Positions 5,588-21,048 of a DNA stretch of 38,657 bases are shown one piece after another. The stretch is from the NCBI GenBank assembly GCA_013114725.1, contig QCWD01000003.1, positions 1 through 38,657 on the forward strand. The letters are read 5' to 3'. Within the stretch, counting starts at the first letter, position 1. Every line of letters starts with the position of its first letter. The position numbers and the translations under genes are program-made. Source of the DNA: Nitrososphaeraceae archaeon (GTDB lineage Archaea > Thermoproteota > Nitrososphaeria > Nitrososphaerales > Nitrososphaeraceae). Under the pieces are notes generated by a model. It was given only the letters and a program-made list of their open reading frames with translations. It was not told the origin of the DNA and ran no database searches.

Positions 5588-6559
5588 CTAAATAACTTTA
5601 ATGGAACCTGTCATCCATGGGTGTAAAGTACAGTAGTAATCATATGAACCGATATCTAAAAATTTAAATTCAAAGGTCTTTCCTATAGCCAAAATTCCGG
5701 AGTCAAACAGGGACATGTCTTCAAAATCATCAGGCGTACCAGCAGTTACAGTATGGATAGATTCATCATTGTTTGTCCAGATGACGGTACTACCAGATGT
5801 AATGGTCAATGCACGTGGGTCATATGTCTTACCGGAGGAGGGATCGTATGATCCCTTCATTATAGATACAGGGATTTTAGCCATATTTACACCAGTATTG
5901 ATTTGATTTGTGTTAGTAGAAGTATCATTTGACATCATCATGTTCATCATGTTCATTGCGCCAGTATTATTCATTATCATCTTCATAGTATCGGTGTTGT
6001 TCATCATCATCTTCATCATGTTCATTGCGCCAGTATTATTCATTATCATCTTCATAGTATCGGTGTTGTTCATCATCATCTTCATCATGTTCATTGCGCC
6101 AGTATTATTCATTATCATCTTCATGGCATCGGTGTTGTGCATTATCATCTTCATCATGTTCATTGCGCCAGTATTATTCATCATCATCTTCATCATGTTC
6201 ATTGCACCTGGATGATTCATCATCATCTTCATCATGTTCATTGCACCTGGATGATTCATCATCATCTTCATCATGTTCATTGCACCTGGATGATTCATCA
6301 TCTTCATGGCATCGGTGTTGTTCATCATCATCTTCATCATGTTCATTGCACCTGGATGATTCATCATCTTCATGGCATCGGTGTTGTTCATCATGTTCAT
6401 TGCACCTGGATGATTCATAATATTTTGAGCAAAAATTTGATCACTAAAACTTATTGAAATTGCTGCAAAGACTAAAGAAGTTATTAAGAAGATTGTTGCG
6501 CTATTTTTCTTGGAATTTATTGGGAAATAAGTCATCTCAATAACTATAGAGAATATCAT
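5588..6559 (-). CDS. Secreted Met-rich tandem-repeat protein with C-terminal blue-copper (cupredoxin) domain
   Basis: This 323-residue protein has three parts. Residues 1-45 are a signal peptide ending 'DQIFAQ'; the likelier start is the second Met at 6535, giving 'MTYFPINSKKN'. Residues 48-208 are 14 tandem units of two alternating kinds, a 13-mer 'MNHPGAMNMMKMM' (or MNNTGAMNMMKMM) and a 9/10-mer 'MNNTDAMKM(I)'. Residues about 225-323 are a plastocyanin-like domain with the type 1 copper ligands His269 ('SIHTV'), Cys310, His313 and Met316 ('CTLHPWM'). Met-rich MxM/MxxM sequences are known Cu(I) ligands in Ctr1, CopA/PcoA-type oxidases and CusF-like proteins, so this region probably binds many copper ions outside the cell. 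Its role could be copper storage, buffering or loading of the adjacent cupredoxin. The gene is flanked by AT-rich DNA and has no operon partner. Confidence 0.88.
   Translation of the reverse strand: MIFSIVIEMTYFPINSKKNSATIFLITSLVFAAISISFSDQIFAQNIMNHPGAMNMMNNTDAMKMMNHPGAMNMMKMMMNNTDAMKMMNHPGAMNMMKMMMNHPGAMNMMKMMMNHPGAMNMMKMMMNNTGAMNMMKMIMHNTDAMKMIMNNTGAMNMMKMMMNNTDTMKMIMNNTGAMNMMKMMMNNTDTMKMIMNNTGAMNMMNMMMSNDTSTNTNQINTGVNMAKIPVSIMKGSYDPSSGKTYDPRALTITSGSTVIWTNNDESIHTVTAGTPDDFEDMSLFDSGILAIGKTFEFKFLDIGSYDYYCTLHPWMTGSIKVI
5936..6418 (-). repeat. Coding tandem repeat, 39-bp and 27/30-bp units (14 units)
   Basis: The DNA encoding the Met-rich domain is a tandem array of two unit types, 39 bp and 27 or 30 bp, 14 units in total. 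Units at the sense 5' end carry HPG, and those at the 3' end carry NTG or NTD. Near-identical neighbouring copies (three successive 39-bp HPG units, and two successive 13-mer plus 10-mer pairs) show recent duplication. Copy number is likely variable between strains and hard to assemble with short reads. Confidence 0.9.
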
Positions 6560-10525: not shown

Positions 10526-10934
10526 TGTACAAATTAATGTAAATCGACTAATAAAATTGATTATTGCTATGCATTACAATAAAATTTTTGAAATAAGAAA
10601 AACCTGAAAATCTTATGCTTGTAAAAGACTGCGGATGATATTTTCCAATTCAATTAAATAGATTGCAGAAATATGTATGGATCATTTTTTCAGAAAAGTT
10701 TATGACTTTTACACATATTATATAAACCAGAATATCCAAAAAGGAATAAATGAATTATAAATACGATGGTGTTCCTGATTGTACTAGCGATGCAATTTAA
10801 AATTTAATAGATATCAGCATCAAGAACGTACTGTTTTGGTTAAATCAAATTCAATTATTTTATAACGATCTATAAAGGTATGAAATATAGTAGAAACAAA
10901 GGAAATAAGGAAATTGAAAGTTTTTGTAAATTAT
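10526..10934. other. Intergenic region upstream of the YHS microgene
   Basis: About 410 bp of AT-rich DNA. A TATA-like 'TTATATAAACC' (about 10717-10727) stands about 25 bp before a tiny ORF, ATG at 10750 to TAA at 10800 (16 codons, 'MNYKYDGVPDCTSDAI'). I cannot tell whether it is expressed. Nothing else was recognised. Confidence 0.35.
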
Positions 10935-10948
10935 TTTACATATGTAAA
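10935..10948. promoter_or_regulatory. Palindromic operator upstream of the YHS microgene
   Basis: TTTACATATGTAAA is a perfect 14-bp palindrome. It ends 38 bp before the YHS start and 9 bp before a TATA-like 'TTAAATAT' at 10958-10965. The same arms, spacing and TATA-like box occur before copA. A second overlapping inverted repeat, TGTAAA-ttat-TTTACA, covers 10925-10940. This is probably the binding site of the neighbouring HTH-TRASH regulator. Confidence 0.7.
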
Positions 10949-10985
10949 CAAATATTGTTAAATATGTATTTATCTATAAATTTAC

Positions 10986-11129
10986 ATGGCAAAAGACCCG
11001 GTATGCAACATGAATGTAGATGAAAAGACGGCAAAATATACTTCAGAAATTGATGGAAACAAAATATATCTGTGTTCTGCTGCATGTAAACAACAATTAG
11101 AACAAAATCCCTCAAAATATGGATATTGA
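10986..11129 (+). CDS. 47-aa YHS-domain metal-binding microprotein (CopM-like chaperone candidate)
   Basis: This short gene encodes 47 residues beginning 'MAKDPVCNMNVDEKTAKY' and containing 'IYLCSAACKQQLEQNPSKYG'. It is a complete YHS/TRASH-type treble-clef metal-binding domain with Cys in 'DPVC' and in 'CSAAC'. It closely resembles the N-terminal domain of the CopA encoded 640 bp downstream ('[13 protein letters not shown]', '[17 protein letters not shown]'). In Sulfolobus a small TRASH protein (CopM) is encoded with the copper ATPase and its regulator, so a copper chaperone or buffer role is likely. It has its own TATA-like box and shares an operator with copA. Confidence 0.85.
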   Translation: MAKDPVCNMNVDEKTAKYTSEIDGNKIYLCSAACKQQLEQNPSKYGY

Positions 11130-11169
11130 GATTTATCATACAGAATCAAAATAACCTAAATTTTTTATT

Positions 11170-11675
11170 TCAGATTTCAGATTTGCCTTCATATTTTCTT
11201 TTTATAGAGTCTATTCTTCCCTTGTATTTTTCAGTGTAACCACCTTTACAAGAAGTGCAACAAAAAAAGCGTTCAAGGTCTGCAAATTTTAAAACTCGGG
11301 TATGCCAAGTATTGGTCCGTGGCAATAATCGCATACAAGGCTTATTGCAAGTCCATTTGTAAGTTGTTCTTCTATTTTGAAATCCTTGTTAAATGTGTTA
11401 ATATCATAATTGTTATCAAAACTTTGGTTTTTTTCTATATCATTTTTTTTGATATTTTGTATTTGAATAAGGTCTTGTGATTTGTGTACCTTGCCAAAAT
11501 CAAATACTGGAAAAATACCTTTGATAAAACCTATGTTAATCAATCTTTCATATCTTGCTTTAACTGTCGGAGTAGTTATTCCTGTTTCTCTAGATATCTG
11601 TCTAAATGATTTTCTTCCATCTTGCAAAAGAGACCGTATAATTGATATGTCGTTATTATCTAAACGAAAAGGCAT
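11170..11675 (-). CDS. Lrp-type HTH + TRASH copper-responsive regulator (CopR-like), frameshifted in the TRASH domain
   Basis: Residues 1-60 form an Lrp/AsnC-type winged HTH ('LDNNDISIIRSLLQDGRKSF', 'GITTPTVKARYERL'). The first half of the C-terminal TRASH metal-sensing domain follows ('LVCDYCHGPILG'). The annotated frame then stops at 11289 after 128 residues. In another minus-strand frame the domain continues without a gap as 'TRVLKFADLERFFCCTSCKG' followed by 'GYTEKYKGRIDSIKRKYEG', ending at 11170. Adding one base near 11295-11303 rejoins the two halves. HTH-TRASH proteins control copA in Sulfolobus. The divergent copA, the YHS gene and the shared operator support the same role here. The frameshift may be real (truncated regulator with half a metal site), programmed, or a base-calling error. 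Confidence 0.8.
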
Positions 11676-14368: not shown

Positions 14369-14848
14369 ATGAAGATTGGAGTTGGCTGGTTTTCTTTTAC
14401 ATGTTGTGAAGATAGTACTATAGTATTAATAGAACTGATGAACGATTATTTTTTTAAATGGAATGAATTCTTAGAGTTTAAATATTTTAGAACATTAAAG
14501 GGTAAAAATGATTTTACGAATCTGGACATAGCCTTTGTAGAAGGGGCAATCGCAAATTCAAAAGAGAAGGATTTTCTCTTAAAAATAAGAGAAAACTCAA
14601 AAAAGTTGGTGGCTATTGGTAGTTGTGCATGTACCGGAAGTCCAGCAAATCAGCGTAATTTTTTTGATAAAGCAACAAAAGAGGAGATAGGTCATATCTT
14701 AATTAGATTTGAGCATTATGACAAAGTTTCACCAATTTCAGATTTCGTTCATGTAGATGATTTTATTCCAGGATGTCCCATGGATGAGAAATTATTTTTA
14801 AAAAAATTGAGTGTTTATTTAAATGAGTTTGGGATATTAAATGCATAA
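14369..14848 (+). CDS. [NiFe] hydrogenase small subunit, short single-cluster type with tandem-Cys motif
   Basis: This 159-residue protein consists of only the flavodoxin-like proximal-cluster domain shared by small [NiFe] hydrogenase subunits and NuoB of complex I. Cys ligand candidates are C12/C13 in 'WFSFTCCEDST', C86 in 'GSCACTG' and C136 in 'PGCPMD'. Canonical hydrogenases have CxxC at the first site. Here the second position is Ser16, and two adjacent cysteines occur instead, as in NuoB, which binds cluster N2 with tandem cysteines. There is no ferredoxin-like extension for medial or distal clusters, so electrons would pass directly to an unknown partner. The stop overlaps the large-subunit start by 8 bp, indicating translational coupling. 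It is clearly hydrogenase-related because of the paired large subunit with intact nickel ligands. Confidence 0.85.
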   Translation: MKIGVGWFSFTCCEDSTIVLIELMNDYFFKWNEFLEFKYFRTLKGKNDFTNLDIAFVEGAIANSKEKDFLLKIRENSKKLVAIGSCACTGSPANQRNFFDKATKEEIGHILIRFEHYDKVSPISDFVHVDDFIPGCPMDEKLFLKKLSVYLNEFGILNA

Positions 14849-16118
14849 TACTTTTGATATAAATATAGAACAGATAAGCAAGACAGAAGGTCATGCAGAC
14901 CTAGAAGTGAAAATACGTGATGGAAAGGTTGAAAATGTAAAGTTAAAGATAAATGAAAATAAGAGATTTTATACCCAGGCAGTAAGAAATAGACCTTTCT
15001 CTAGTGTTCCACAATTTGTGTCCCGGATATGTGGTACTTGTAGTATTGCTCATTTGACATGTAGTATTGAATCACTGGAAAAATGTTTAGAAATTAATCC
15101 CACAGAACAGACTGAACTGTTAAGAAAGCTCTCAGTTTATGGAATGATAATACGAGACCATGCATTACATCTTTATTTTTTTTGTTTACCTGATATTTTT
15201 AAAGTTGATTCTGTATTTGATTTTGACGAGTCAAAAAACTATTTAATAAAACAGGCGTTTGCAATAAAAAGTGTCGGAAATAATCTATCAAAGATTATCG
15301 CAGGACGTTCAGTTCATCCAACATTTGAAAAAGTCGGACATTTTATGCACGTTCCCTCAAAAGAAGAAGTAGATGGTCTTTTAACTCAGTTGATAGATTC
15401 AAGAAATATAGTCATAGATCTAATTAAAATTTTTTATGAATGTGATTTTGAATTTAAAAGGGATTGTAATTTTGTCGCACTAGTCACAAAAGACTTTAGT
15501 TTTCTAGAAGGAGAGATAAGGTCGACTGACGGAACAACAATACAAGAAAAGGATTATTGGACTTATTTGAAAAGAGTGATTATTCCTTACTCACAATCAG
15601 CTGGATTTCTATTCAATAAAAAAGAGTATATGGTAGGGGCGTTATCTAGAATGAATTTAAATAAGAATTCCATTAACAAAAAATCACGTGATGACCTATC
15701 AGAATTTTTAAAAGTATTCCCATCAAATAACATATATCATAACAATCTTGCACAGGCTATTGAAATATTACATTGTATAGACCATTCAATACAAATTCTT
15801 CAAGAAAATGAATTCAAAAAAGAGTCACCGCCGACCGTCAAAATTAAGGAGGGAAGAGGAGTTGGTGTGATAGAAGCACCCAGAGGAACGTTATATCACA
15901 TGATAGAGCTGGACAAGGAAGGAAAAGTAAAGTTTGCAAACTTTGTGATACCAACCAGTCAGAATCAAATAAAAATGGAAAATGATATAAAATTACTTCT
16001 GCCAACGATATTAGAAAAAGATAGGCATTTTATTCACCATGAGCTTGAGAAGGTAATAAGGGCTTACGACCCATGCATGAGTTGTGCTAGTCATTTTCTA
16101 AAATTGAAATGGACTTGA
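14841..16118 (+). CDS. [NiFe] hydrogenase large (catalytic) subunit
   Basis: This 425-residue subunit carries both nickel-ligand motifs: L1 'RICGTC' (R62, C64, C67) followed by 'SIAH', and L2 'DPCMSC' (C412, C415) followed by 'ASH'. Family blocks 'AGRSVHPTFEKVGHFMHVP' and 'GRGVGVIEAPRGTLYHMIEL' are present. The length and short form fit the cytoplasmic group 3-like enzymes more than membrane uptake hydrogenases. After His418 a 7-residue tail ('FLKLKWT') remains, the expected site of cleavage by the maturation endopeptidase. The 3' end overlaps the convergent endopeptidase gene by 32 bp. No diaphorase, F420-binding or ferredoxin subunit is encoded nearby, so the physiological electron carrier and direction of H2 turnover are unknown. 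Confidence 0.93.
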   Translation: MHNTFDINIEQISKTEGHADLEVKIRDGKVENVKLKINENKRFYTQAVRNRPFSSVPQFVSRICGTCSIAHLTCSIESLEKCLEINPTEQTELLRKLSVYGMIIRDHALHLYFFCLPDIFKVDSVFDFDESKNYLIKQAFAIKSVGNNLSKIIAGRSVHPTFEKVGHFMHVPSKEEVDGLLTQLIDSRNIVIDLIKIFYECDFEFKRDCNFVALVTKDFSFLEGEIRSTDGTTIQEKDYWTYLKRVIIPYSQSAGFLFNKKEYMVGALSRMNLNKNSINKKSRDDLSEFLKVFPSNNIYHNNLAQAIEILHCIDHSIQILQENEFKKESPPTVKIKEGRGVGVIEAPRGTLYHMIELDKEGKVKFANFVIPTSQNQIKMENDIKLLLPTILEKDRHFIHHELEKVIRAYDPCMSCASHFLKLKWT

Positions 16119-16488
16119 TTTTATTAACAAGTTCTATTAACGCTTTTTTTTTATCCATAAACATAGGGACCCCGAAAATGATAACATCGTCGATCATATC
16201 CAGTTTTTTAAAAATTTTTAAGGAATTTGCTAAATCAAAATCATGAACAGAATAAATCCTATTTATAAATAAATCATCTATGTTTCTAATTATTGTTACG
16301 TTTTTAATATTCTCTACCGAATCTAAAATATATAATATTCGTCCCTCATTTTGTATCTCTTCAATTGTGTCAAATTCCTTAAATTCTATATTTGGAAATT
16401 CTTTTCGTAGTGATTTTATCAATTTTAATGGGAGGCGGTCCTTTTCAACAAGTGGATTTCCAAAAACCAGGATTTTATTTATAGCCAT
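16087..16488 (-). CDS. Hydrogenase maturation endopeptidase (HycI/HybD-like)
   Basis: This 133-residue protein matches nickel-dependent hydrogenase maturation proteases (about 150 aa). It has 'VFGNPLVEKDRLP' near the N-terminus (Asp17 at the first metal-ligand position), 'ILDSVENI' (Asp56) and 'VHDFDLANSL' (His82). These correspond to the Asp/Glu, Asp and His that sense bound nickel in HybD and HycI. It should remove the short C-terminal tail of the large subunit after Ni insertion. It is the last gene of the minus-strand maturation operon, 18 bp after the aldolase-like gene. Its final codons are antisense to the codons of the large-subunit L2 motif that it processes. Overall similarity is modest and the call leans on motifs and context. 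Confidence 0.8.
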   Translation of the reverse strand: MAINKILVFGNPLVEKDRLPLKLIKSLRKEFPNIEFKEFDTIEEIQNEGRILYILDSVENIKNVTIIRNIDDLFINRIYSVHDFDLANSLKIFKKLDMIDDVIIFGVPMFMDKKKALIELVNKIKSISILEND

Positions 16489-16506: not shown

Positions 16507-17280
16507 TTAGGTTACGTCGCTTGTATTTTTATTACTTATTTGTTCCTGTCTACCTCCAAATTTAATAGATCTCGCATACCGCGAACCTAGACTACGTAAT
16601 TGATCAAGTTTTAGAACATGTAGCGGTCCGTTAAAGATTTTTGCAAAAATATAAAATTTTGCACATTCTTCCAATATTTCCACGAATGCTCGTGATTCAT
16701 GTACACATGCTCCTAATCCCAAAACACTATTTTTTTTTATAACTATTGTTCTTATTGGTCGAAGTGGTTCTCCCAAACTTGAATCGGTTATTTTATTTAT
16801 CAATAACTCATCTTCAATATTTAATTTATAATTTTCCCTATTTATTACTGGAATATCACCCAAAATCAATGTGGCCTCTCCATGAACTTTTTTGATAGTA
16901 TCATCTTCGAAAGAAATAATTGAATAATGATTTCTTGTATGACATATCGCGTTGACGTCCGGTCTCAGTTCATATATTGTTTTATGGAGTTGAAGTTCAA
17001 ATTTATAAATTGATTTTATTTTTGAGAGATAATTATTTTTGTTCAAATCATTATTTGTATCTATTTTATGAAACTTTACATTCTCGTCCCAAGAAGAATT
17101 TTCAAAATAGGCGATACTGAATTTGTCAGATGATGGAAGGCGGGCACTATTAAATCCTTTTTTTACAGGAAGTAAACCTTTTTCTCGTAATCCAAAAGTA
17201 CAATAGACTAATTCTTTTTCAAGTTGTTCCTCATTAGTTTGACAGAGATTACAAAAACTATTTCCAATAAAAAAAGACAT
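16507..17280 (-). CDS. Class II aldolase/adducin-like protein within the hyp operon
   Basis: This 257-residue protein has the class II aldolase/adducin fold pattern: 'AICHTRNHYSII' (about 112-122), 'KVHGEATLILGDIPVI', and 'SVLGLGACVHESRAFVEILE', a remnant of the usual 'HGvvavG.....a......lE'. Classical members bind catalytic zinc with HxH and a third His in 'NHG'. Here the first site is HTRNH (H114, H118) and the third His is replaced ('KKNS'). Normal aldolase activity is therefore doubtful, though His194 might act. A Cys pair 'CNLC' (10-13) and Cys27 near the N-terminus could form a separate metal site. It lies 17 bp after hypD and 18 bp before the endopeptidase gene, so it should be co-expressed with hydrogenase maturation. 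Its function there is unknown. A metal-handling or accessory role is only a guess. Confidence 0.75.
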   Translation of the reverse strand: MSFFIGNSFCNLCQTNEEQLEKELVYCTFGLREKGLLPVKKGFNSARLPSSDKFSIAYFENSSWDENVKFHKIDTNNDLNKNNYLSKIKSIYKFELQLHKTIYELRPDVNAICHTRNHYSIISFEDDTIKKVHGEATLILGDIPVINRENYKLNIEDELLINKITDSSLGEPLRPIRTIVIKKNSVLGLGACVHESRAFVEILEECAKFYIFAKIFNGPLHVLKLDQLRSLGSRYARSIKFGGRQEQISNKNTSDVT

Positions 17281-17297: not shown

Positions 17298-18410
17298 TTA
17301 TTTTTTAATCTTTTTAATTGATGATATTATAGAGTGTTCTGCCCATATTCTACAAGTTCCTTCTAGGGAAACCATTGTTGGGCCTTTGGGTTTTTGACTT
17401 GTACATTCTTTCATATATAGAGGACATTCTACCGGTTCGCATAAACCTAAAATAACTTCTCCACAACGCGCGCCAACAACAAAATTCTCATTAGCATTAT
17501 TTTTTGATAGGCCGTATCTTACATAGGAGTCATAATCTTTGTATTTTTCTTTTAAGGTAAAACCACTTTTGGGAATGGTCGCAACACCTCTAACGTGTCC
17601 GTTATCAAGGTCAAAAACTTTTTCCAATTTTTCTTGTGCAATTTTATTTCCCTCCCAAGTTACAGATCTTTGATATTCATTTTCCAATCTAGGAGAGTTA
17701 TCCTTGATCTGTCTTAATAACATTAAAATTCCAAGTAACAAATCTACTGGTTCAAATCCACAAAAAACTTGAGGTTTACGAGTTTCCAAAAAATATTGAT
17801 AATATGGCATCATTCCTGTTATTGTGGACGAATGTCCTGGATTAATTACACCGTCTATCCCAAGGACCGATGATTTGAGAACGGACCCAACAATTGGAGG
17901 CATATACCTGTATGAGATAATCAATGAAAGATTTTTGGGCAATCCATTTAATACTTCAAAAGCAGTAGGTGGAGATGTTGTATCAAATCCAACACCAAAG
18001 AAAATAAATTCTTTAGTTGGATCTCTTTTTGCATTTAGTATTGCATCTTGAATGCTATATACTATTTTTATATTGCATCCCAACGCCCTAACATCCAAAA
18101 GACTTTGACCTTTAGACCCTTTTGACCTTGACATGTCCCCATATACCAGTATGGTTTTTCCTTCCTGTGCAAGTTTAATAGCATTGTCTATATCATCAAC
18201 GGGAGTAATACAAACAGGGCAGCCAGGACCAGGTCTTATATCGACATTTGAGGGCAAAAGTGATCGAACACCATTATGAGATATAGTCCATTCATGAGAT
18301 CCGCATACATGCATAAAAATAAGATCTTCCTCGATAAAATCTGCGTACTCATGAATTTTTTGTGTGATTTTTTTTGCAATCTCGCGATTATTATATGACT
18401 CGAGAACCAT
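17298..18410 (-). CDS. hypD: Hydrogenase maturation protein HypD (Fe-CN2-CO scaffold)
   Basis: This 370-residue protein contains the HypD signatures 'CGSHEWTI' (about 41), 'IRPGPGCPVCITP', 'FFGVGFDTTSPPTA', 'VFCGFEPVDLL' and the C-terminal [4Fe-4S] and thiol-cascade region 'GARCGEVILGLCEPVECPLY' ... 'LEGTCRIW'. HypD works with HypC to hold iron while CO and two cyanides are added, using carbamoyl groups from HypF and HypE. The start codon is one base after the hypC stop, indicating tight coupling. Length and motifs are normal. Confidence 0.97.
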   Translation of the reverse strand: MVLESYNNREIAKKITQKIHEYADFIEEDLIFMHVCGSHEWTISHNGVRSLLPSNVDIRPGPGCPVCITPVDDIDNAIKLAQEGKTILVYGDMSRSKGSKGQSLLDVRALGCNIKIVYSIQDAILNAKRDPTKEFIFFGVGFDTTSPPTAFEVLNGLPKNLSLIISYRYMPPIVGSVLKSSVLGIDGVINPGHSSTITGMMPYYQYFLETRKPQVFCGFEPVDLLLGILMLLRQIKDNSPRLENEYQRSVTWEGNKIAQEKLEKVFDLDNGHVRGVATIPKSGFTLKEKYKDYDSYVRYGLSKNNANENFVVGARCGEVILGLCEPVECPLYMKECTSQKPKGPTMVSLEGTCRIWAEHSIISSIKKIKK

Positions 18411-18411
18411 T

Positions 18412-18723
18412 TTACATCTTTTTTATGTTTTTATTTCTTATGTAACCTAAATCACTGACCAAATTTCCTGTAGAACATTCGTCTACTATTTCACATTGAT
18501 TGCACTTCCATATAGTATTTTGAATCCAATATTTTAGCATATTTTCTGCTTCTTCAATGTCCAAAGTTTGAATTGCATATCCTGCATGAATAAGAACATA
18601 ATCACCTATTTTACCTTCTATATAAGATATGTTGATATTTTCTCGTATGGTCCCTCCTCCAAAATCAATTTTTGCAAAATTGTCGTTAATCTCAACAATC
18701 TTGCCAGGAAAAGCCAAACACAT
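18412..18723 (-). CDS. hypC: Hydrogenase maturation chaperone HypC with Cys-containing C-terminal extension
   Basis: This protein starts 'MCLAFPGKIVEI', with the essential N-terminal Cys2, and keeps 'VGDYVLIHAGYAIQ'-type OB-fold residues ('KIGDYVLIHAGYAIQTLD'). HypC delivers the Fe(CN)2CO unit from HypD to the large subunit. It is 103 residues long, whereas HypC is usually 70-90 aa. The extra C-terminus contains 'WKCNQCEIVDEC', a possible metal-binding knuckle. It sits between hypF (54 bp upstream) and hypD (1 bp downstream). Confidence 0.95.
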   Translation of the reverse strand: MCLAFPGKIVEINDNFAKIDFGGGTIRENINISYIEGKIGDYVLIHAGYAIQTLDIEEAENMLKYWIQNTIWKCNQCEIVDECSTGNLVSDLGYIRNKNIKKM

Positions 18724-18777: not shown

Positions 18778-21048
18778 TTACATTTTAGTAATTTTATTCA
18801 TTGTTAAATAAGCTTGTCCTGCGGATAATCCTCCATCGCCTGATGGGATTTTCTTGTGAGTTAAAAATTTTATTCCGTTAGTTTCAATTTTTTTTTTCAA
18901 TGTTTTTGCGATAGTATTATTATAAGCAACACCTCCTGAAAATCCTATTTTTTTTATGCCGTATTTTGTTGCACTTTCGATAGCTATCTCTGCCAGTCCA
19001 TTTGCAATGCAACATTGGGATGAATATGCCAAATCCTTGATAGAATATTTGTTTCGATTTTCATACAAATATTTAAGTAACTCTGTAGTATCAAATACGT
19101 TTTTTTCAATTTGAGGAGATATAGAAATATCGTCACCATTTATTGAAGCTGAGTCTAAAGAAATTGCTGGCTCGCCCTCATAGGTTCTTTGATAACATAT
19201 TCCTAACAGTGAGGATATTGCATCAAGAATTCTACCAGTGCTTGTGGACTTTATATATTTTTTTGATTTAATTTGGTGGATAATAAATTCAATTTCTTTA
19301 TCTCCTTGTGGAAAATGAAAATTATGTGCATAAATAAATTTTTCAAAATTATTGACATTATTGTATAATATACCTGCCAACATCCTTAATGGGTTATTTG
19401 TAGCAAGATCGCCTCCAATCAAAGGTTGTTCTTTTAAATGTCCAATTCTATCAATCTCATGACTATTTTCGCATTTAAAGATCTCACCACCCCAAGCATT
19501 TCCATCAAGGCCATACCCCATGCCATCACAAACTATTCCTATCAAATCATCTACACCGTATTCCATCATCAAAGAAGCAATATGAGAGTGATGATGCTGA
19601 ATTTGAAAAATATTTGATTCATCAGTGGTCAATTCATAAACTAATTTTGTTGTATCATATGACGTATTCAAATCAGAAGCAAAATATTTTGGTGTTAAAT
19701 TTAATAGATCAAGGTTCTTTTTGATAGTATCTTTAAAAAAAATAAACGTTTCTGGAATTTCAATATTACCTATATGCTGTGAAATAAAGCATTTGTTTTC
19801 ATAGAGTATAGAAAAAGTCACATTTTCCTGACCTCCTAAAGCGAGAATGCAATCATTAAAACGTTTTTTAGTATAGATTAAAGATGGTACATAACCTCTA
19901 GAACGCCTTAACAATAAAGGATTGTCGTTTATAACTTTTAAAATAGAATCATCACACTTTGAAAAAATTTCTCTGTCATGAACTAAAAAATAATTTACAT
20001 AAGAACCAAGTGATGTTAGTGCATCTGTGTTATCCGTAATTATTGGAGAATTCCTGTTATTTGCACTCGTCATCAATAATGCAGGCTCATCGACAAATTG
20101 AAATAAAATAACGTGAAGTCCAGTATATGGTAACATTACACCAATATTATGAAGTTTGGGCGAGACCAGTGGAGAAAGACAATAGTCATCGTTTTTGTTA
20201 AGAAGCACAATTGGTTTCATGTGAGATGATAGAACCTTTTTCTCAACGTTACTTACAATAGCAAAATTTTTTATGGAGGTGAAATCCTTGCTCATTACTG
20301 CAAAGGGCTTATTTTGACGATTTTTTCTTATTCGTAATCTTTCTATAGGATCTGAATTAATTGCTGAAGTTGCAATATGAAACCCACCCAAGCCTTTTAT
20401 TGCTACTATATTTCCTTCCTCGATTAATTTTGCGAATAATAAAATTGGATCTTCAGATTTAATAGTATTACCTTTATTATCGAGAATGTAATAGTATGGA
20501 CCACATGAGGAACATGAAATTAATTCGTAGTGAAATCTTTTATTGTTGGGATCTTTATATTCCTGTTCACAATTGTTACACATTGCAAACTTATTCATTG
20601 TTGTATTAATACGGTCATATGGCAATCTTTTTAATAATGTAAATTTGGGCCCACAATCAGTACATGAAATAAATGGATAATTGTTATACCTATTTTTTCC
20701 AATCTTCATTTCAATGATACAATTTTTACATATAGAAATATCAGGAGAAATTAATGAGCCAGTAATTTTATTTAGGTTACGACTAGAAATTATTTTAAAA
20801 TCATCGTATTTTTTTTCATCTCCTGTGTCTTTTATTACAATATTTTGATAATAGGCTAAAGATGGTTTTTCTTTTTTCATTTTTTTAAAAAATAAATAGA
20901 TTGCTTCCTTACTACCTTGGATGCATATTTCAACGGTGCCATCATCTTTGTTTTGGATAAAACCGTACAGATTGCATTCTTTTGCAATTCTGTGTACAAA
21001 TGGTCTAAACCCTACACCTTGTACTATTCCTGCAACAGATATTTTCAG
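18778..21048 (-). CDS. hypF: Carbamoyltransferase HypF, complete when a non-ATG start is used
   Basis: HypF makes the carbamoyl group that becomes the cyanide ligands of the hydrogenase iron. The first ATG (20880) gives 700 residues that begin just before the zinc fingers, and would lack the acylphosphatase domain. The same frame stays open for 56 codons upstream and encodes 'LKISVAGIVQGVGFRPFVHR', the diagnostic acylphosphatase-like motif. The true start is probably the CTG at 21048, giving 756 residues, which is the normal length. The only start-like codons between the upstream TAA and this domain are CTG. Next come two CxxC-x18-CxxC zinc fingers ('CKNC', 'CTDCG', 'CNNC', 'CSSCG'), a YrdC-like domain and the Kae1-like domain ('HHHSHIASLMMEYG', 'CDGMGYGLDGNAWGGE'). 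It is the first gene of the operon to hypC-hypD-aldolase-endopeptidase. Confidence 0.93.
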   Translation of the reverse strand: MKISVAGIVQGVGFRPFVHRIAKECNLYGFIQNKDDGTVEICIQGSKEAIYLFFKKMKKEKPSLAYYQNIVIKDTGDEKKYDDFKIISSRNLNKITGSLISPDISICKNCIIEMKIGKNRYNNYPFISCTDCGPKFTLLKRLPYDRINTTMNKFAMCNNCEQEYKDPNNKRFHYELISCSSCGPYYYILDNKGNTIKSEDPILLFAKLIEEGNIVAIKGLGGFHIATSAINSDPIERLRIRKNRQNKPFAVMSKDFTSIKNFAIVSNVEKKVLSSHMKPIVLLNKNDDYCLSPLVSPKLHNIGVMLPYTGLHVILFQFVDEPALLMTSANNRNSPIITDNTDALTSLGSYVNYFLVHDREIFSKCDDSILKVINDNPLLLRRSRGYVPSLIYTKKRFNDCILALGGQENVTFSILYENKCFISQHIGNIEIPETFIFFKDTIKKNLDLLNLTPKYFASDLNTSYDTTKLVYELTTDESNIFQIQHHHSHIASLMMEYGVDDLIGIVCDGMGYGLDGNAWGGEIFKCENSHEIDRIGHLKEQPLIGGDLATNNPLRMLAGILYNNVNNFEKFIYAHNFHFPQGDKEIEFIIHQIKSKKYIKSTSTGRILDAISSLLGICYQRTYEGEPAISLDSASINGDDISISPQIEKNVFDTTELLKYLYENRNKYSIKDLAYSSQCCIANGLAEIAIESATKYGIKKIGFSGGVAYNNTIAKTLKKKIETNGIKFLTHKKIPSGDGGLSAGQAYLTMNKITKM

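Follow-up and report, generated by a model that had tools for sequence, protein, structure and literature searches.

A gene pair of a Nitrososphaeraceae archaeon encodes what is best read as a divergent, compact, two-subunit [NiFe] hydrogenase of the group 3 type with its own maturation genes. Judging from the sequences, we give even weight to the proposal that the proximal cluster of this heterodimer is held by C12, C86, C136 and, probably, Asp15 of the small subunit. The proposed set of proximal ligands would be new within a known type of hydrogenase; the proteins may already be catalogued in other databases or papers. The whole stretch of DNA analyzed (38,657 nucleotides, hereafter the window) contains the following features:

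14369..14848, + strand: [NiFe]-hydrogenase small subunit, 159 aa, single-domain, proximal cluster only (Oxidored_q6, 61.8 bits)
14396..14419, + strand: loop F10–T17 of the small subunit, FTCCEDST, with C12, C13, E14, D15, and S16 (register from gapless alignment; loop states in 57 relatives)
14841..16118, + strand: [NiFe]-hydrogenase large subunit, 425 aa (NiFeSe_Hases, 95.1 bits; ShyA model, 249 bits, cut-off 700)
16087..16488, − strand: divergent hydrogenase maturation protease (HybD/HycI-like), 133 aa (L027 orthologue and structure matches)
16507..17280, − strand: class II aldolase/adducin-domain protein (PF00596, 37.8 bits)
17298..18410, − strand: HypD (TIGR00075, 364.7 bits)
18412..18723, − strand: HypC (TIGR00074, 62.5 bits)
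18778..20880, − strand: HypF, matching from model position 52 (TIGR00143, 708.5 bits)

The translation of the small-subunit ORF begins MKIGVGWFSFTCCEDSTIVL. It bears out the sequence-only reading, namely a hydrogenase small subunit whose proximal loop is altered: FTCCEDST stands where TxCxGC is canonical, C12 and C13 are adjacent, and both C86 (in GSCACTG) and C136 (in PGCPMD) are present. The large-subunit ORF overlaps the end of the small-subunit ORF, and its nickel ligands are intact, as had also been claimed (C64 and C67 in RICGTC, C412 and C415 in DPCMSC). After H418, the large subunit carries a C-terminal extension of 7 residues. The protease gene is convergent with the large-subunit gene and overlaps its end.

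According to the phmmer analysis, the best PDB match of the small subunit is the delta subunit of P. furiosus SHI (E-value 2e-15), and the large subunit matches the SHI alpha subunit (E-value 1e-54). The scores against the NCBIfam equivalog models were all below cut-off, namely, HydD (58 bits, cut-off 500), HydA (210 bits), ShyD (53 bits), and ShyA (249 bits). The small subunit aligned only to residues 5–154 of the 261-position group 3b model and stops shortly after the GCP motif, without a C-terminal cluster domain. In the Foldseek search with its AlphaFold (AF2) model (pLDDT 94.1), SHI delta was ranked first by E-value (TMq 0.80–0.81), followed by the short HydABCSL small subunit and HoxY (0.82–0.83), and then by Mvh/Frh and group 1 proteins; the TMq of complex I subunits was 0.55–0.60. 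Neither the window nor the G010 and G045 islands have a diaphorase gene (HydB/HydG) next to the hydrogenase genes, and one protein with a PF10418 domain (DHODB Fe-S domain) is encoded on another contig of the genome. The enzyme thus departs from group 3b, with a small subunit lacking CxxC and the C-terminal cluster domain, no four-subunit operon, and scores below cut-off; the N- and C-terminal CxxC nickel ligands of its large subunit are those of the [NiFe]-hydrogenase superfamily.

Gapless alignment of the small subunit to SHI delta and to group-3-like Thermoproteota proteins of 250 aa (KLKVGVFKLTSCSGCQ against KIGVGWFSFTCCEDST) gave the register of the loop. C13 falls on P0, the position of the first canonical Cys, and Ser16 on P+3, that of the second, the latter in agreement with the sequence-only reading; in the alignment with group-3 small subunits, C12 takes position P-1, and Asp15 takes position P+2, which is normally Gly. 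Among the 250-aa relatives, CxGC was found in 39 of 46 sequences, CxGD in six, and another P+2 residue in one. The CxGD proteins (L040, L041, L045, L055, L056, and L062) are a second case of a naturally occurring Asp in the proximal loop.

The tandem cysteines had been likened to those of NuoB, the binding site of cluster N2. When NuoB of the same genome (TACCSVEF) was aligned by BLAST with the genome's own group-4-like paralogue (GSCNGCEIEI), its second tandem Cys corresponded to the second Cys of CxxC, which places the NuoB tandem at P+2/P+3; a joint alignment was used as well. The likeness holds for the adjacency but not for the position, and the tandem cysteines at P-1/P0 and those of NuoB are not the same site. 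The idea of an intermediate between hydrogenases and complex I was rejected on this register, on the variability of C13 (Ser in 11 of 57 relatives), and on the fold, which resembles group 3b more than complex I by the above TMq values; the grading of the loop to GCEGC also stands against it. The host genome encodes a group-4-like small subunit (L031:3694–4512) that has ferredoxin-like cysteines at its N-terminus and an intact CxxC; no large subunit was seen on its 4.6-kb contig.

Relatives of the short form were searched for in the phyla Thermoproteota and Micrarchaeota using a profile built from eight sequences; a contig scan with the single protein as query gave only 3 loci. The short form was identified in six of 70 Nitrososphaeraceae genomes, where a seventh match was no more than a weak fragment. 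Of 295 Micrarchaeota-phylum genomes, 53 gave strong matches, the only ones counted. Of 398 genomes sampled from the host phylum, the short form was carried only by the two Nitrososphaeraceae with strong matches. The distinct short relatives number 57, six from Nitrososphaeraceae and 51 from the Micrarchaeota phylum. No relatives were detected in the viral contigs scanned, and the plasmid scan revealed only distant oxidoreductases (~26–32% identity). The six Nitrososphaeraceae sequences formed one clade in the large-subunit tree (support 98), which fits a single acquisition. Other Nitrososphaeraceae genomes carry the gene island too, two of them on contigs of 299–579 kb, and a sequencing error or MAG artefact was rejected on this ground; the neighbouring MAGs are draft genomes. 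Moreover, this loop or a close variant of it is present in 47 of the 57 relatives, from two archaeal phyla, which excludes a chance or error-derived motif.

Positions 12–16 of the 57 relatives read CCEDS (33 sequences), CSEDS (9), CCEDN (3), CSEDN (2), CCEGC (4), GCEGC (3), and GDEGC (3). The family thus contains the graded forms GCEGC, CCEGC, CCED[SN], and CSED[SN]. Since the motif grades via CCEGC to the canonical GCEGC, the loop probably arose inside the group-3-type hydrogenases. All stages of the ligand trade are found among relatives in another archaeal phylum, which argues against a step towards complex I. None of the 47 “ED” forms lacks C12, C86, or C136. Asp15 is found in every sequence that has lost the canonical Cys16 and in no other (47 of 47 versus 0 of 10). 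On the large-subunit tree, D15/G15 changed approximately three times, with at least one change forced; with so few switches, shared ancestry could explain the association, and too few pairs were available for the independent-pairs test. Of the 47 ED forms, 36 have Cys and the other 11 have Ser at position 13. Ser13 reflects at least eight separate C/S changes on well-supported branches of the large-subunit tree, indicating that C13 is dispensable in the family. No other Cys was gained in the 11 relatives where C13 is lost. Residue 88 is Cys in seven of the 11 Ser13 forms and in 25 of the 36 with CCED; C88 was rejected as a substitute ligand because it is not conserved. Whatever the loop type, RICGTC...DPCxSC is retained in every large subunit whose sequence includes these sites, a few loci in this count being truncated or without a match to the search pattern. 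In three short small subunits with GDEGC (L112, L117, and L118), Asp replaces the first canonical Cys.

In the proposed site, residues 13 (P0) and 16 (P+3), the loop ligands of the canonical form, would be replaced by their neighbours, Cys12 at P-1 and, most likely, Asp15 at P+2 in place of the conserved Gly. C12, C86, C136, and Asp15 would together hold a 3-Cys/1-Asp [4Fe-4S] cluster, and C13 and S16 would no longer be required as ligands, though C13 could be a ligand where it is present. The first tandem Cys of NuoB is also located at P+2, so a side chain at this position can reach the cluster. Cys19 of the O2-tolerant MBH lies at P+2 as well and binds the cluster there. Since E14 stays fixed, the backbone register itself is unmoved, and the C12xxD15 spacing, which keeps CxxX, assumes a rearrangement of the loop. 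Ligation of the cluster by Asp is plausible: natural Asp substitutions were recorded at proximal positions 1 and 2, and in a mutational survey Asp was almost always the best-tolerated replacement at proximal ligand positions (PMC4070099), while in group 1h a specific Asp coordinates the proximal [4Fe-4S] cluster (PMC7174314). The change of ligands would probably tune the cluster potential and, by analogy only, may suit H2 oxidation in an aerobe. The sequence, its conservation, the co-variation, the Ser13 relatives, and the intact nickel site are observed, whereas we infer the Asp15 ligation, the cluster type, its potential, and the direction of catalysis.

The strongest rival, which we consider rather unlikely, is a three-Cys site, where C12, C86, and C136 hold a [3Fe-4S] cluster or a [4Fe-4S] cluster with an open iron, Asp15 and Ser16 being non-ligands. 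Only these three cysteines are constant across the ED forms, and Huc, the hydrogenase of atmospheric H2, provides a precedent. It has three [3Fe-4S] clusters, assigned from the density and the fourth coordinating residue, and their potential, ~250 mV higher, helps to make the oxidation of trace H2 feasible (PMC10017518). Such a site, if true, would make the proximal cluster one of high potential, as in Huc. However, the invariance of Asp15 in the 47 ED forms, and its presence only there, suggest a direct role for this residue. By analogy, either an Asp-ligated cluster or a three-Cys [3Fe-4S] cluster could suit an aerobic H2 oxidiser.

A site with four cysteines, in which the tandem C12 and C13 act with C86 and C136 as in the sequence-only reading but without descent from complex I, appears unlikely. 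In the six Nitrososphaeraceae sequences and the first two from Micrarchaeota, exactly these four cysteines do not vary, and tandem-Cys ligation is known for NuoB. Against this, C13 gave way to Ser repeatedly and independently in relatives with intact large subunits, and the register is unlike that of NuoB. In addition, the O2-tolerant [4Fe-3S] site was considered and rejected, as there are too few cysteines.

Returning to the 3-Cys/1-Asp cluster, a fuller history can be offered tentatively. A group-3-type lineage would have moved its loop ligands from P0/P+3 (CxxC) to P-1/P+2 (C-x-x-D) via CCEGC intermediates that are still living, giving a previously undescribed register, and aerobic ammonia-oxidising archaea would have acquired the enzyme as an H2 oxidiser.

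The maturation genes were analyzed in the window and in the rest of the genome. The 133-aa protein encoded at 16087–16488 has no direct Pfam match, but its L027 orthologue matches PF01750 (HycI) with an E-value of 5e-4, below the cut-off. With the AF2 model of the protein, Foldseek ranked HybD (5ija) first and HycI third, both of Thermococcus, and residues G10, N11, D17, D56, and H82 are invariant in this HybD/HycI-like protease. HypE is encoded elsewhere in the same genome (364.6 bits). In this 91%-complete genome, HypB was not found, and the HypA match was weak (20.8 bits, below the cut-off); other proteins may serve for nickel insertion, or the assembly may lack the HypA and HypB genes. The 7-residue extension, the HybD-like protease, HypC, HypD, and HypF in the window, and HypE elsewhere correspond to the maturation system of the [NiFe]-hydrogenase superfamily. 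A degenerate small subunit without a proximal cluster and with another role, e.g., as a scaffold or sensor, is very improbable: the lack of a diaphorase subunit nearby and the HypA and HypB results would fit it, but C86, C136, and the nickel ligands are conserved in the family, and the protease and HypC, D, E, and F are present.

Several other features of these loci were observed. The start of the N-terminal region of HypF (18778–20880) appears to be missing or mis-started, the L027 homologue being longer. A class II aldolase/adducin-domain protein adjoins hypD in several Nitrososphaeraceae islands (L027:6623–7312, L028:3035–3841, and L029:3732–4475), where a second paralogue is located near hypE; a role of this protein in hydrogenase maturation is possible. 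Downstream of hypE in the islands, there are a small two-CxxC protein and a helical protein (L027:10651–10920 and 10926–11252), neither of which matches Pfam. In Micrarchaeota, the hydrogenase genes repeatedly adjoin those of an EamA permease and of DUF6390 or HypC-like proteins (L130:3169–4851, L134:1917–2468); DUF6390 is weakly similar to HypC.

The host genome (1.9 Mb) contains archaeal amoA (390.8 bits), indicating that the host is an ammonia oxidiser; its close relatives include “Nitrososphaerales archaeon TH1177”. The window also encodes a cupredoxin-domain protein (5588–6559) with a long Met/His/Asn repeat (MNHPGAMNMMKMM...), which is encoded by 39/69-bp tandem repeats and is perhaps a copper-binding array. 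In a review of ammonia-oxidising archaea, Nitrosocaldus is credited with group 3b enzymes of four subunits and the other members with Ehr complexes, and no such heterodimer is listed (PMC10432482). A two-subunit hydrogenase is added to some Nitrososphaeraceae. Across the family, the ligand sets of the proximal cluster form a natural series (GCEGC, GDEGC, CCEGC, CCEDS, and CSEDS) beside unchanged nickel ligands, which makes the relation of ligand identity to potential, catalytic bias, and O2 tolerance directly testable.

Among known systems, P. furiosus SHI (group 3b, HydDA) is the best match in sequence and fold for both subunits and has the same strand-loop-helix register, whereas its small subunit has 261 aa rather than 159 aa, CxxC stands in place of CCEDS, and no HydB/HydG genes adjoin the genes studied here. 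HoxY of group 3d and HydS of HydABCSL (5xf9, 7t2r) are likewise short (~180 aa), single-domain small subunits, but no HoxFU or HydABC partner genes are found in the window, and the loop differs. NuoB shares a homologous fold, tandem cysteines, and the conserved GxCA and GCP motifs with the small subunit; it differs in the position of the tandem (P+2/P+3), while here C13 is not constant and the partner large subunit keeps the nickel ligands. The O2-tolerant MBH of group 1d, with its [4Fe-3S] cluster, also has an extra Cys near the proximal loop, but it needs six cysteines, whereas here there are C12, C13, C86, and C136, one of them dispensable in the family, and the variable C88. In group 1h (actinobacterial-type), Asp takes the place of the second Cys, at P+3; in the present family, P+2 is Asp, P-1 is Cys, and P+3 is Ser or Asn in the ED forms, and the group and architecture differ. 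Nevertheless, group 1h, which is found in aerobes and has Asp as an unusual proximal ligand (PMC7174314), bears a likeness to the proposed Asp15 site.
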